A program made the translations under genes and the position numbers. A stretch of 64,000 bases of DNA from Actinotalea soli (lineage in GTDB: Bacteria; Actinomycetota; Actinomycetes; Actinomycetales; Cellulomonadaceae). Below the pieces are notes generated by a model. The model did no database searches. It worked only from the letters and a program-made list of their open reading frames with translations, and was not told where the DNA came from. Within the stretch, counting starts at the first letter, position 1, and every line of letters starts with the position of its first letter. The DNA is taken from NCBI RefSeq assembly GCF_017565425.1, contig NZ_JAGEMK010000001.1, positions 434,001 to 498,000 on the forward strand. Reading direction: 5' to 3'. This document shows, piece after piece, positions 23,005 to 30,342 of the stretch.

Positions 23005-24818
23005 CGCTTCTCCTCCTCGGTGTGGTCACCCTCGCCGTCAGGTCGCGGCCCGCGGCCGTCGTCGACGATCGTCGAGGAGGACTGCTCAGGCTCGGCGTCC
23101 CCGCTCGCGAGGCGCTCGGCGGCCGCCGAGGTCTGCCCACGGCGATCCGCCTCCCAGTCCAGGACGCCGGCGTCGGGCTCCACGTGGTCCATCGCCGCCA
23201 CCTCGGGGTGGTGCAGGTCGAAGGCCGGGCGCTCGGACCGGATGCGCGGCAGCGACGTGAAGTTGTGCCGCGGCGGCGGGCAGGACGTCGCCCACTCCAG
23301 GGAGTTCCCGTAGCCCCACGGGTCGTCGACGGTCACCTTGGGAGCCTTGCGCCAGGTCACGTAGACGTTCCAGAGGAAGGGCAGCGTCGAGGCCGCGAGC
23401 AGCACCGAGCCCACGGTCGACAGCTGGTTCATCCAGGTGAAGCCGTCCTCAGGCATGTAGTCCGCGTACCGCCGGGGCATCCCCTCGACACCGAGCCAGT
23501 GCTGGACGAGGAAGGTCCCGTGGAACCCGAAGAAGAGCGTCCAGAAGTGCCACTTGCCCAGGCGCTCGTCGAGCATCGTCCCGGTGAACTTGGGCCACCA
23601 GAAGTAGAAGCCCGCGAACATCGCGAAGACGACGGTCCCGAAGACCACGTAGTGGAAGTGCGCGACGACGAAGTAGGTGTCCGAGACGTGGAAGTCCAGT
23701 GCCGGGCTCGACAGGATGATGCCGGTCAGGCCACCGAAGAGGAAGGTCACCAAGAAGCCGATCGACCAGAGCATGGGCGTCTCGAAGGTGAGCTTCCCGC
23801 GCCACATCGTGCCGATCCAGTTGAAGTACTTCACACCGGTCGGCACCGCGATGAGCATCGTCATCAGGGCGAAGAAGGGCAGCAGGACCGCGCCCGTCAC
23901 GTACATGTGGTGGGCCCACACGGTGACGGAGAGAGCCGCGATCGCGATCGTCGCGTAGACCAGGCCCTTGTAGCCGAAGATCGGCTTGCGGCTGAAGACC
24001 GGCAGGATCTCGCTGATGATCCCGAAGAACGGCAGGGCGATGATGTAGACCTCGGGGTGGCCGAAGAACCAGAACAGGTGCTGCCACAGGATGGCGCCGC
24101 CGTGCTCCGGGTTGAAGACCTGCGCACCGAGGCGGCGGTCCGCGCCGAGGGCGAACAGCGCCGCCGCGAGCGGCGGGAAGGCCATGAGCACGAGAAGGCT
24201 GGTGACCAGCGTGTTCCAGGTGAACAGGGGCATCCGGAACATCGTCATGCCCGGCGCACGCATCGTGATGATCGTGGTGATGAAGTTCACCGCGCCCAAG
24301 ATGGTGCCGAACCCGGTCAGAGCGAGGCCGAAGACCCAGAGATCACCGCCCAGCCCCGGGGAGAACGTCGAGCTCGACAGCGGGGCGTACGCGAACCAGC
24401 CGAAGGAGGCCGCCCCCTGGGGGGTCAGGAAGCCCGCCACGACGATCAGCCCGCCGAAGAGGTACAGCCAGTAGGCGAAGGAGTTCAGCCGAGGGAAGGA
24501 GACGTCCGGCGCACCGATCTGCAGCGGGACGAGCACGTTGGCGAACCCGGCGAAGAGAGGCGTCGCGAAGAGCAGCAGCATGATCGTGCCGTGCATCGTG
24601 AAGAGCTGGTTGTACTGCTCCTTGCTCTGGACGAACTGGATCCCCGGCTCGAAGAGCTCGGCCCGGATCACCAGCGCCATGAGACCGGCGATGCAGAAGA
24701 AGATGAACGAGGTGATCAGGTACAGGTACCCGATCTTCTTGTGATCGGTCGTGGTGATCCACTCGACGATCGAGGTCCCGAGGCTCTTTCCCTCGCGGCG
24801 TACGGTCTGCGTGGCCAT
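23001..24818 (-). CDS. ctaD: Cytochrome c oxidase subunit I
   Basis: The product is 605 aa with about 12 transmembrane helices. This is the catalytic haem a / haem a3-CuB subunit. CuB and haem ligands are visible in [12 protein letters not shown] (the His-Pro-Glu-Val-Tyr crosslink motif), WAHHMYVTG and [10 protein letters not shown]. The C-terminal tail is cytoplasmic and acidic. ATG 24818 overlaps the ctaC stop by one base (TGATG), and the gene overlaps ctaF by 4 bp, so the three genes form one coupled unit. The longer in-frame start at 25004 lies inside ctaC. Confidence 0.95.
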
Positions 24819-25708
24819 CAGCCCTCTCCTGCCGCAGTGGCGTTGTCGTCCCCGCGGGTCTGCTGACGGTCGAGCTCGGGGCCCAGCTGGCCGGTCTGCC
24901 CGGCGGCCCGCAGGCTCTCGATGTGGGCGTCGTACTCCTCGCGCGAGACGACCGCGACGTTGAAGAGCATCCCTGCGTGGTGCTGGCCGCACAGCTCGGC
25001 ACACTTGCCGGCGTAGACCCCCTCACGCGTCGGGACCACCTGGAAGGTGTTGATGTGGTTACCGGGGAACATGTCCTTCTTGTAGAGGAAGGCAGGGACC
25101 CAGAACGAGTGGATGACGTCGCGGGACCTGAGCTCGAACTCGACCCGCTCGTCGACCGGCAGGTAGAGGGTCGGCAGCCGCTCGGGGTTGCCCGGCTCGC
25201 CGATGTCGATCACGTGGACGCCGGTGTCGTAGACGTCCTCGTCGACGTAGTTGAAGTCCCAGCTCCACTGCTTGCCGTAGACCTGGACGACCACGTCGGG
25301 GTCCGCGTCGGTGTCCTCGATCGCGTCCATGTCACGCGCCGTGAAGAAGAACAGCACGCCGACCATGAGGATCGGGAGGATCACGTACATGATCTCGAGC
25401 GGGACGTGGTAGCGGAGCTGCACCGGGAGGGTGTCGTCGTCCTTGCGCTTCCGGTAGACGGCGACGCACCAGATGATCAGGCCCCAGGTGATGGCCCCCA
25501 CGATGAGCGCGGCGATCCACGACCCGGTCCACAGGTTCGTGATGCGCTCGGTCATGTTGGTGACCTGCTGGCCGTCGTCGTAGCCGGGCATCCAGCCGCG
25601 GCTCACCTCGCCCGCCGAGCAGGCGGTGGTGGTGAGCGCGACGATCACGGCGGTCGCGGCGAGCCGCGCGGCGGTGGACCGCTTGCGGCCGGGGTTCTGC
25701 ACGTCCAA
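24818..25708 (-). CDS. ctaC: Cytochrome c oxidase subunit II
   Basis: The product is 296 aa. A lipoprotein-type signal ends in TTAC with Cys30 as the lipidation site. Two transmembrane helices follow (about 60-82 and 105-125), then the periplasmic CuA domain with [21 protein letters not shown] and [12 protein letters not shown], which supply the CuA ligands. It accepts electrons from QcrC. The start is TTG 25708: AGAGG lies six bases upstream and the signal peptide begins there. No ATG fits. It is first in the oxidase operon. Confidence 0.93.
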
Positions 25709-25874: not shown

Positions 25875-27071
25875 GTGAAGCGCACCTACCTGGACGCCGG
25901 TGGGCGGGCTCCCCTCCACCCGGCGGGGCTCGCCGCCCAGACCGCTGCCCTCGACGAGGGCTGGGCCGACCCGCGCAGGCTGCACGCGGAGGGACGGCGC
26001 GCGCGGATGCTCCTCGACGCAGCGCGTGAGGTCTTCGCCGAGGGCCTCGCGTGCCGGCCGGAGGAGGTGCACCTGGGCCCCTCGCACACCGTGGCCCTCC
26101 AGCACGGTCTCCTCGGGATCGCCCGTGGTCGTCGGCGGGCGGGCAGCGGCATCGTGCTCTCGGCCGTCGAGCGCGCCGCCCTGCACGCGGGTGCGCAGCT
26201 CGTCGCCGAGCGCCACGGCTCGTGGACCCGACCTGCGCGCCCAGGGCACGCGAGGAGCGAGGAGGCCGCCGCGCACCCTGGTGCACCGGTACCGGTCGAC
26301 CGGGTCGGTCGGGTGGACCTCGAGGCGTGGCGCGCGGCCGTCGGTCTCCCAGGAGTCGCTCTCGCCGTCCTCCAGCATGCCAACGGCGAGGTCGGGACGG
26401 TGCAGCCGCTGACCGCCGCGTACGACGCGACGCAGGCCGCCGGGGTCCCGCTCCTGGTCGACGCAGGGTCGAGCCTGGGCCACCATGGGATTCCGCCGGC
26501 CTGGGACGCGGTCGTGGCCGATGCCGGAGACTGGGGAGCCCCGTCGCCCCTCGGCGTCCTGGCGGTCCGCACCCGCGTACGGATGGCCCCCGACTGGCCG
26601 GAGGACGAGGACCGGTGGTTCCCCGGCGGTGTCCCGGTCCCGGCGGCCCTCGGCGCTGCGGCCGCCCTCCGCGCCACGCTCGCGGACCAGGAGGAGGCCG
26701 AGCAGCGCCGCCGGAGGCTGATCGGTCGGCTCCGCGACCAGGTCGCACAGAGGGTGCCCGACGTGGACGTGGTCGGCGATCCCGAGGACAGGCTCCCGCA
26801 CGTGGCCACGTTCTCCTGCCTCTACGTCGACGGCGAGGCCCTCGTGACCGAGCTCGACCGCCGCGGCTTCGCCGTCGGGTCCGGGTCGGCGTGCACCTCG
26901 AGCTCCCTCGAGCCGAGCCACGTGCTGGCCGCCATGGGCGCGCTGACCCACGGGAACGTGCGGGTGACGCTCTCGCGCGAGGTCACCGAGGCCGAGGTGG
27001 ACCGCTTCGCCGACGAGCTGCCCGAGGCCGTGGCTCAGGTGCGTCGGTCCCTCGGCGTCCAGGGCCTGTGA
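25875..27071 (+). CDS. Cysteine-desulfurase-like protein lacking the PLP lysine
   Basis: The product is 398 aa with the NifS/IscS fold order. The loop Cys is kept: FAVGSGSACTSS (Cys340). So are Asn170 (QHANGEVGTVQ) and Asp196 (LLVDAGSSLG), which contact PLP. The PLP-lysine block, normally like SGHKxxGPKG, reads VADAGDWGAPSPLG, so His-Lys is Gly218-Asp219. The PLP-stacking His in the VEH motif is Arg100, and the Gln after the PLP Asp is Ser. It therefore should not form the usual PLP Schiff base and may act as a sulfur acceptor, a scaffold or an inactive paralogue. Its stop overlaps the TusA-like gene by 4 bp. The start follows TAGCGT-N7. It is commonly annotated simply as cysteine desulfurase, which the residues do not support. 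Confidence 0.8.
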   Translation: MKRTYLDAGGRAPLHPAGLAAQTAALDEGWADPRRLHAEGRRARMLLDAAREVFAEGLACRPEEVHLGPSHTVALQHGLLGIARGRRRAGSGIVLSAVERAALHAGAQLVAERHGSWTRPARPGHARSEEAAAHPGAPVPVDRVGRVDLEAWRAAVGLPGVALAVLQHANGEVGTVQPLTAAYDATQAAGVPLLVDAGSSLGHHGIPPAWDAVVADAGDWGAPSPLGVLAVRTRVRMAPDWPEDEDRWFPGGVPVPAALGAAAALRATLADQEEAEQRRRRLIGRLRDQVAQRVPDVDVVGDPEDRLPHVATFSCLYVDGEALVTELDRRGFAVGSGSACTSSSLEPSHVLAAMGALTHGNVRVTLSREVTEAEVDRFADELPEAVAQVRRSLGVQGL

Positions 27072-27334
27072 TCGTCGTCGACGCCCGGGGCCTGCGCTGC
27101 CCCCTGCCCGTGATCCGCCTGGCGTCCCTCGCGCGGGACGCCAACCCGGGTGACGAGGTCCTGGTCCGCTGGACCGACCCCGCGGCAGAGCACGACATCC
27201 CCGCCTGGGCCCGCATGCGCGGGCACACCGTCCTCGAGACCAGGCTCCCTCAGCCCGCGTCGGGCGAGGCAGGACCGGACGCCCTCGCTGACGAGCCCTC
27301 GGGCGCCACACTGGTGCGCCTGGGCCCCGGCTGA
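27068..27334 (+). CDS. TusA-family sulfur-carrier protein
   Basis: The product is 88 aa. The N-terminus is IVVDARGLRCPLPVIRLASL, with the CPxP motif and persulfide-carrying Cys11. The usual TusA C-terminal strand is present as WARMRGHTVLE. TusA proteins take a persulfide from a cysteine desulfurase and pass it on, for example for tRNA or cofactor thiolation. The start is GTG 27068, overlapping the stop of the desulfurase-like gene by 4 bp, so the two are made together. A 25-residue tail follows the core domain. Confidence 0.85.
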   Translation: MIVVDARGLRCPLPVIRLASLARDANPGDEVLVRWTDPAAEHDIPAWARMRGHTVLETRLPQPASGEAGPDALADEPSGATLVRLGPG

Positions 27335-27420: not shown

Positions 27421-27771
27421 TCAGGCGAAGGAGCCCCCGCAGGCGCACGAGCTGCCTGCGTTGGGGTTGTCGATCGTGAAGCCCTGCTTCTCGATGGTGT
27501 CGGCGAAGTCGATCTTGGCGCCGTCGAGGTACGGGACGCTCATGCGGTCGACGACGACCTCGACGCCGTCGTAGTCCCGCAGCGCGTCGCCGTCGAGGAC
27601 CCGCTCGTCGAAGTAGAGCTGGTAGATGAGGCCCGAGCAGCCCCCGGGCTGCACGGCGACGCGCAGCCGCAGGTCGTCGCGGCCCTCCTGCTCGAGCAGG
27701 GTGCGCACCTTGCCCGCGGCGACGTCGCTCAGCTCGACCCCGTGGGTCGCGGTCTCCGTGGTCTCGCTCAT
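27421..27771 (-). CDS. erpA: A-type iron-sulfur cluster carrier (IscA/ErpA/SufA)
   Basis: The product is 116 aa. The three conserved Cys are Cys45 (GGCSGLIY) and Cys109 and Cys111 (SSCACGGSFA). It has the family blocks LRVAVQPGGCSG and IDFADTIEKQGFTIDNPNA. It should carry nascent Fe-S clusters to target proteins; QcrA, NadA, LipA and NirB in this window all need clusters. The start is ATG 27771 with GGAG five to six bases upstream. A much longer in-frame opening upstream reads through the glycerate kinase gene and is not real. The exact paralogue (ErpA or SufA) is uncertain. Confidence 0.9.
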   Translation of the reverse strand: MSETTETATHGVELSDVAAGKVRTLLEQEGRDDLRLRVAVQPGGCSGLIYQLYFDERVLDGDALRDYDGVEVVVDRMSVPYLDGAKIDFADTIEKQGFTIDNPNAGSSCACGGSFA

Positions 27772-27859
27772 GGTGTCTCCGGTGGCTCTCGGGGGCTTGC
27801 ACAGTCCGTCGATGGCAACACCGTCGGGTGCCGCCATGTTCCCGTCCAGCCTACGCCCC

Positions 27860-29050: not shown

Positions 29051-29127
29051 CTCGCCATCCTGCCCCAGCCCGCCCGGGTAGGGCCGACGACGTGGGCTCG
29101 GCGGGCACCGTGTGGGATCATCGTGGG

Positions 29128-30342
29128 GTGAGCGCCGTCGCCCCTCCTCCGCCCTCCCCCGGCTTCGCCGAGCCCGCACCCTCGGCAGTCCTGGAGCTCC
29201 TCGGCACCCCCCGGGACCTCGCCTCCGAGCGAGGTGTCGAGTGCCCCGGTGACCTCCCGGCCCCGAGCGATCCCGACCTGGTCGCCCGGGCGCGCGCCGC
29301 CCGGGCGGCCCTCGGCGACAGGGCGTTCGTCCTCGGCCACCACTACCAGCGGGACGAGGTCATCGACTTCGCCGACGTGACCGGTGACTCGTTCAAGCTC
29401 GCCCGCGAGGCGGCCGCCCGCCCCGAGGCCGAGTTCATCCTCTTCTGCGGCGTGCACTTCATGGCCGAGTCGGCGGACATCCTGACCCACGCGAACCAGT
29501 CCGTCGTGCTGCCCGACCTCGCGGCAGGCTGCTCGATGGCCGACATGGCAGCGATCGACCAGGTCGAGGAGGCCTGGGAGGTCCTGGCCGACGCCGGGAT
29601 CGCCGACCGGACCCTGCCCGTCACCTACATGAACTCCACCGCTGCCATCAAGGCCTTCACCGGTCGGCACGGGGGCACGGTGTGCACCTCGTCCAACGCG
29701 CAGGTCGCGCTCCGCTGGGCCTTCGACCAGGTGGGCGGGGTCGACGGGGACGGCAAGGTGCTCTTCATGCCCGACCAGCACCTGGGGCGGAACACGGCGG
29801 TCCTCGAGCTCGGACTCGCCCTCGAGGACTGCGTCGTCTTCGACCCGCGTCGGCCCGGTGGCGGCCTGAGCCAGGCCGAGCTCGAGAACGCGCGCATGAT
29901 CCTGTGGCGCGGGCACTGCTCGGTGCACGGGCGCTTCTCGGCGCAGAACGTGACGGACGTGCGGGAGCGGGTGCCGGGGGTCAACGTCCTGGTGCACCCC
30001 GAGTGCAAGCACGAGGTGGTCACGAGCGCGGACCTGGTCGGCTCGACCGAGTTCATCATCCGCGCCCTCGACGGGGCCGAGCCGGGCTCCTCCTGGGCCA
30101 TCGGCACCGAGCTCAACCTGGTGCGCAGGCTCGCGGCCCAGCACCCCGAGCTGGACGTGCACTACCTGGACTCCACGGTGTGCTTCTGCTCGACGATGAA
30201 CCGCATCGACCTGCCGCACCTCGTCTGGGCCATGGAGTCGCTGGTCGCGGGACGGACGGTCAACCGCATCGTCGTCGATCCGGACGACGCCCACTGGGCC
30301 CGCGTGGCCCTGGACCAGATGCTGGCGCTCCCGGGGCTCTGA
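29128..30342 (+). CDS. nadA: Quinolinate synthase A
   Basis: The enzyme condenses iminoaspartate with dihydroxyacetone phosphate to quinolinate for NAD synthesis, using a [4Fe-4S] cluster. The product is 404 aa. Cluster Cys candidates lie in FCGVHFMAES, HPECKHEV and CFCSTMNRI; substrate blocks include LGHHYQRDEVIDFAD, DLAAGCSMADM and TYMNSTAAIKAF. The start is GTG 29128, six bases after a GATCAT element. nadB and nadC are not in the window. A DJ-1/PfpI gene starts one base after its stop. Confidence 0.93.
   Translation: MSAVAPPPPSPGFAEPAPSAVLELLGTPRDLASERGVECPGDLPAPSDPDLVARARAARAALGDRAFVLGHHYQRDEVIDFADVTGDSFKLAREAAARPEAEFILFCGVHFMAESADILTHANQSVVLPDLAAGCSMADMAAIDQVEEAWEVLADAGIADRTLPVTYMNSTAAIKAFTGRHGGTVCTSSNAQVALRWAFDQVGGVDGDGKVLFMPDQHLGRNTAVLELGLALEDCVVFDPRRPGGGLSQAELENARMILWRGHCSVHGRFSAQNVTDVRERVPGVNVLVHPECKHEVVTSADLVGSTEFIIRALDGAEPGSSWAIGTELNLVRRLAAQHPELDVHYLDSTVCFCSTMNRIDLPHLVWAMESLVAGRTVNRIVVDPDDAHWARVALDQMLALPGL

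Follow-up and report, generated by a model that had tools for sequence, protein, structure and literature searches.

A conserved cysteine-desulfurase-like protein without the PLP lysine, usually linked to TusA, in Actinotalea soli and its order

The window (the whole stretch of 64,000 nucleotides that was analysed, part of a contig in a 3.63 Mb genome) holds a gene for a cysteine-desulfurase-like protein from which the residues that hold PLP have been lost. Alignments and a structure model showed that, in the host's order, the PLP site is gone and that the protein has kept its predicted fold, the mobile loop with Cys340 and, in most cases, an adjoining TusA. The combination of no covalent PLP, an invariant Cys340 and a TusA that keeps its own cysteine is best read as a non-catalytic platform for sulfur handling. 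We tentatively propose, with a little less than even confidence, that it is a conserved pseudo-desulfurase, a platform for sulfur that has a Cys, lacks PLP and acts together with TusA. The Lys-less protein probably handles sulfur without acting as a classical enzyme, and TusA is probably its usual partner and not the only one.

The features of the locus are collected in Table 1. When re-read from the sequence, the reading frame, the residue numbering and the GTGA in which the stop of the pseudo-desulfurase gene and the start of tusA share four bases were as given in the initial annotation. There are two candidate starts, and in our reading an AGGCGG is better spaced 5' of GTG 25866 than of GTG 25875. 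The Lys-less protein scored 78.5 bits against Aminotran_5 (PF00266), the class V aminotransferase domain of fold type I that marks the group I cysteine desulfurases (IscS/NifS), and the TusA-like protein 62.2 bits against PF01206, being the only match to that family at E 0.001 in the window's genome. Against the NCBIfam equivalogs both were below the cut-offs, with 172.9 bits for the best match of the Lys-less protein, TIGR03402 (cut-off 530.75), and 41.5 bits for the TusA-like protein against the TusA equivalog (cut-off 78). Among the matches listed, the closest named orthologue was that of Actinotalea sp. C106, 91% identical.

Table 1. Positions in the window of the pseudo-desulfurase gene, its active-site codons and the neighbouring genes
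Feature	Positions	Strand	Remarks
ctaC (COX2)	24818-25708	-	divergent neighbour, conserved synteny
Lys-less cysteine-desulfurase-like gene	25866/25875-27071	+	398 aa from GTG 25875, 401 aa from GTG 25866
Arg100 codon	26172-26174	+	in place of the PLP-stacking His
Ser199 codon	26469-26471	+	in place of Gln
Asp216-Ala217-Gly218-Asp219 codons	26520-26531	+	in place of Ser-Ala-His-Lys
Cys340 codon	26892-26894	+	persulfide cysteine position, mobile loop
His359 codon	26949-26951	+	column best tracking linked TusA
Arg363 codon	26961-26963	+	kept
TusA-like gene	27068-27334	+	88 aa, Cys11 in RCPLP, PF01206
Fe-S_biosyn protein (ErpA/HesB type)	27421-27789	-	convergent neighbour, conserved synteny
nadA	29092-30342	+	nearby, conserved synteny

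In HMMER alignments to solved desulfurases the catalytic His-Lys pair aligned with Gly218-Asp219, the positions which we take to be those of the His and the Schiff-base Lys of the PLP site. The replacements of this pair, of the stacking His and of the Gln, all of which had been claimed from the sequence alone, hold on alignment, and the retention of the Cys340 loop, Asn170 and Asp196 is borne out both there and in the orthologues of the order. Two features were absent from the earlier description: Asp216 stands at what is presumably the position of the phosphate-cup Ser of desulfurases, and Arg363, assumed to be the substrate-carboxylate Arg, is retained. Residue roles follow E. coli IscS, except where a passage is cited. 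The sole lysine of the window protein is K2. The structure model that had been suggested as a check predicts an intact desulfurase fold, confident over the full length (AlphaFold2, pLDDT 87.6, pTM 0.88) and with a pLDDT below 50 in the Cys340 loop, residues 339-347. The nearest solved folds found with Foldseek include Mtb IscS (4isy, TM 0.84), A. fulgidus IscS (4eb5, TM 0.84-0.85) and human NFS1.

The gene was present in 103 of 396 genomes of the order (E 1e-72 or better). We made comparisons in a set of 248 loci (L009-L256), corresponding to 216 distinct proteins; the genomes were drawn evenly, and the counts describe the sampled loci and not all genomes. Own-order orthologues are here the loci matched within the same order together with the named-contig loci except L146, and they include two oddly labelled ones, L075 and L086. 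None of the 148 distinct own-order orthologues has Lys at position 219 or His at 218. Asn170 and Asp196 are found in all 148, and Cys340 and Arg363 in all 147 that reach them (L029 ends at a contig edge before both). A substitution pattern conserved to this degree is not due to chance. Over all 216 proteins position 219 is Lys in 57 and another residue in 159, namely Asp (121), Ser (19), Ala (9), Gly (5), Thr (3), Glu (1) or Met (1). The expectation that Lys would always be absent thus stands inside the order and fails farther away, where 57 of the 68 orthologues from elsewhere in the class carry it; Cys340 is present in all 68. The Lys of these distant orthologues tells of the protein's origin and is no sign of an error.

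The individual sites were followed in a tree subset of 41 Lys-bearing, 54 own-order Lys-less and 11 other Lys-less rows, from which L218, L219 and L250 (with Lys) and L210 (without) had been set aside. Position 216 is Ser in 41/41 Lys-bearing rows; in the own-order Lys-less rows it is Asp in 43/54 and Ser in 3/54, and His218 is lost in all 54. Gln at position 199 occurs in 28/41 Lys-bearing and 0/54 own-order Lys-less rows, and the Trp after the Lys position is present in 47/54 of the latter. The stacking His at position 100 is invariant among the Lys-bearing rows (41/41), and the own-order Lys-less rows have Arg in 36 cases, His in 17 and Gln in one. Since His is still there in 17 of 54, this suggests that the Lys was lost first and the stacking His later. 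In the 65 Lys-less rows taken together Cys340, Arg363 and Asn170 are each present in 65/65 and Asp196 in 64/65.

The pseudo-desulfurase gene is plainly under purifying selection. The nearest pair gave a dN of 0.040 and a dS of 0.261 (dN/dS about 0.15), and the NG86 dN/dS was about 0.09-0.23 in seven pairs, one of them Lys-bearing. The combination first proposed, a lost PLP site and a retained persulfide Cys, is real in the 148 own-order orthologues. A decaying gene or a sequence error, which close orthologues with Lys would have indicated, has next to no probability for the window protein and is refuted for the family by the agreement of these 148, the low dN/dS, the invariant motifs and the intact fold model. 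The cases of the kind expected from decay are isolated ones. L210 in genome G022 has diverged strongly, shows an in-frame TAG in its search match and is probably decaying. Genome G419 (1.9 Mb) has two diverged copies, L201 and L202, the first of which has the loop GCGCTCG and adjoins a TusA without its Cys.

The lysine content of the whole protein bears on whether PLP could still be held. The core (residues 5-390) is without any lysine in 121 of 157 Lys-less proteins, and the other 36 have at least one elsewhere in it; lysine does not exceed 10% in any one column of the Lys-less proteins. Exactly one core lysine is found in 23 of 55 Lys-bearing proteins. With no core lysine in these 121, and only K2 in the window protein, an internal PLP aldimine cannot form there, and judged from the residues most Lys-less members can have no covalent PLP aldimine. 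It is conceivable that the protein is still an enzyme, with PLP or PMP bound non-covalently or with a new chemistry using Asn170, Asp196 and Arg363, which are found in every own-order row that reaches them; the lysine-free cores, the loss of Lys and His in 148/148 and of the phosphate Ser in 51/54 make this very unlikely. A bare carrier need not have these three residues, and their invariance suggests that the pocket still has a job. A cofactor-free relay in which the emptied pocket (Asn170, Asp196, Arg363) binds a small persulfide, e.g. of cysteine or mycothiol, whose sulfur goes over Cys340 to TusA, would give it one, although we consider this particular arrangement rather unlikely. If it were true, the TusA branch would run without desulfurase catalysis at this step.

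The position of the gene indicates its descent. In all 20 loci examined (6 Lys-bearing, 14 Lys-less) it lies between a divergent ctaC-ctaD-ctaF and an erpA-like gene, and nadA is downstream in 19, the exception being L086 on a contig of 6999 bases. The Lys-bearing and the Lys-less forms are therefore orthologues at one and the same place, and as nadA and erpA are near to both, they give no pointer to a function specific for the Lys-less form. The gene most likely descends from a PLP-dependent, TusA-linked enzyme of IscS/NifS type that stood beside ctaC and erpA in the class. With Lys kept in most orthologues outside the order, the comparison suggests that this ancestral desulfurase most likely lost PLP within the host's order. 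The Lys-bearing actinomycete orthologues, e.g. L146 of Catellatospora sichuanensis and the fused L056, have the same Cys loop and differ by a full PLP pocket, mostly with SAHKWGG, VEHS and DAAQ or similar. Two loci, L086 (in a record of Sphaerisporangium cinnabarinum ATCC 31213) and L075 (in a MAG labelled Proteobacteria), have a Lys-less orthologue of Cellulomonadaceae type with 58-59% identity, and it looks as if the labels are wrong or the contigs foreign.

Trees were rooted with an outgroup of 11 paralogue rows, all with Lys. In a careful tree of 84 of 121 rows, the own-order Lys-less rows group together as a single clade within the Lys-bearing family (support 99/96). The 37 rows dropped from it were long or redundant and include L218, L219, L254, L253, L252, L210 and L236. 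In a quick tree of all 121 rows the own-order clade also held the long-branched Lys-bearing L218 and L219, for which a long-branch warning was given, and L254, a Lys-less row from outside the order; the clean clade of the careful tree thus depends on leaving out L218 and L219. The label changes between Lys and no Lys were 6 in the quick tree, at least 4 of them forced by starred branches, and 4 in the careful tree, 1 of them so forced. Eleven Lys-less orthologues from several families of the class lie beyond the order (L235, L236, L243-L247, L251-L254), which suggests further losses. Several independent losses were considered as a firm claim and dropped, since the AU test did not reject a common clade for all the Lys-less rows (p-AU 0.405).

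Among the 159 Lys-less members 125 have a TusA fused to the desulfurase-like protein or closely downstream of it, and among the 57 Lys-bearing members 54 do. Of the remaining Lys-less members 33 are without a linked TusA and one more ends at a contig edge. The TusA cysteine is kept in 124 of the 125 linked to Lys-less members (that of L246 shows CPLP), the one loss being that beside L201, and in 53 of the 54 linked to Lys-bearing members, where the match at L217 is too short to tell. In a hand count over 59 genomes, the window's and those of 58 relatives, 37 have a full gene, and in 31 of these TusA adjoins it; one of the six non-adjacent cases (G047) ends at a contig edge. One genome (G014) has a gene fragment, and any TusA was found in 3 of the 21 others. 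Co-occurrence in these 59 genomes, the window's included, was also used to look for a target of TusA, and by eye neither FdhD (22/59) nor NadA (51/59) showed a tie to the pair.

One column of the alignment follows TusA closely. Among 157 Lys-less rows (all but L029 and L201), 121 of the 124 with a linked TusA and 7 of the 33 without have His359, which lineages without a linked TusA have repeatedly changed. Phylogenetically independent pairs gave 6-8 that agree and none that disagree, with a median p of 0.0156 (range 0.0078-0.031). His359 was picked post hoc after viewing the alignment and was the third trait tried, and for this reason all 172 columns with a conservation of 80% or more among the TusA-linked rows were scanned; His359 ranked first among them. 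Most of the other columns near the top lie in the C-terminal third, where the Cys loop is (295-296, 313-316, 323, 343-346 and 357-358), and columns 18, 29, 155, 171 and 189 are also within the top 20. Such a pattern suggests that the pseudo-desulfurase and TusA interact, and the coupling to TusA that had been read from the gene overlap is strengthened both by the kept cysteines and by the way His359 follows TusA on the tree. Two other traits were tried as TusA determinants and rejected: Leu at loop residue 345 is found in 115/124 rows with and 13/33 without TusA (not significant in the pairs, median p 0.125), and a more extended loop motif did less well (median p 0.25). Too strict a link of His359 to TusA is countered by the eight Lys-bearing proteins that are fused to TusA, in which residue 359 is Glu. 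In these eight loci (L056, L057, L058, L059, L061, L063, L064 and L065), which are from large genomes, probably of Streptomyces, Lys-bearing desulfurase and TusA make up one protein of 460-471 aa.

All 33 Lys-less orthologues without a linked TusA have Cys340, which implies that loading of TusA is not the sole role of the protein. The proposed role with TusA is therefore upheld as regards the linkage, which is real, and not as a role limited to TusA. A search for unlinked TusA was made in 26 genomes, which represent all the TusA-less rows except 7 that come from named contigs (26 of 33), and 22 of these genomes have a PF01206 match at E 0.001 somewhere. Twenty such loci were examined. Nine show a CPGP domain within a long open frame, nine are of a type with GGD..CARLL and without CPxP, and the remaining two, L280 and L281, are short CPMP forms. 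The GGD..CARLL type (L291-L299) is a second, unlinked TusA-like type, with the pattern GGD..CARLL...DPVAPIDLP.WC and without the CPxP prolines, in genomes that lack a linked TusA.

By analogy, the nearest and direct precedent for the window protein is IscS2 of Archaeoglobus fulgidus (4EB5, 4EB7, 4HVK), which has the same fold, a natural Lys-to-Asp change and a Cys loop. In our alignment 4EB5 has Asp where 4R5F, titled D199K mutant, has Lys, and the Gln position is also changed (DATAS versus DAGSS). PMC7585200 describes A. fulgidus IscS as being without desulfurase activity, with its Cys as a ligand of the IscU cluster, and IscS1 of Methanosarcina acetivorans as also without the Lys. A. fulgidus IscS differs in being archaeal, in having IscU as partner, in keeping the phosphate Ser and in having Leu at the Arg363 position, whereas the window family has TusA as usual partner, keeps Arg363 and shows the trait in every own-order orthologue examined. 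In literature searches, largely without full texts, no paper on the actinomycete Lys-less family was recognised.

This precedent opens for a cluster-ligand role also here, in which Cys340 would be a ligand or scaffold in Fe-S assembly or transfer, perhaps involving the neighbouring ErpA-type carrier and with TusA as a side partner. An identical Lys-to-Asp change goes with cluster ligation in A. fulgidus, an erpA-like gene adjoins in each of the 20 loci examined, and Cys340 is retained in the lineages without TusA. The erpA gene is, however, convergent and outside the operon, and it is placed alike where the desulfurase keeps its Lys, so that the synteny is not specific for the Lys-less form. 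The archaeal Leu against Arg363 is a further difference, and the coupling of His359 to TusA would be left unexplained. We regard a cluster-ligand role as unlikely, if still deserving serious consideration.

The desulfurases of this fold are dimers, and serine palmitoyltransferase has Lys-less partner subunits. The Lys-less protein could by comparison be a regulatory or heteromeric pseudo-subunit, which pairs with an active desulfurase (an IscS-like paralogue or SufS) and directs it to TusA. The window's genome does have further class V aminotransferase-family proteins, including the IscS-like paralogue L002 with SGHK; an invariant Cys340 would be hard to explain if the partner's own Cys supplied the sulfur, and we find a pseudo-subunit quite unlikely.

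For our preferred reading, a sulfur-handling platform working with TusA, the E. coli pair IscS-TusA (PDB 3LVJ) offers a likeness, a protein of desulfurase fold with TusA as acceptor. According to PMC2854127, IscS of E. coli is a PLP protein with several acceptors, whereas in the window protein the PLP site is gone. The Lys-less protein would instead do without PLP and provide a docking platform with a cysteine. This cysteine, Cys340, would accept sulfane sulfur made elsewhere, by another desulfurase, by a rhodanese or from a small persulfide, and hand it on to Cys11 of TusA, which may then carry the sulfur onward to an acceptor.

The label of class V aminotransferase or desulfurase given to these proteins masks that most of them cannot form a PLP aldimine. 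The family looks like a natural split of the two halves of a desulfurase, the cofactor chemistry on the one side and the handling of persulfide and cysteine on the other, and since both the Lys-bearing and the Lys-less forms are found at the same locus, it should be possible to test which of the halves the TusA pathway needs.
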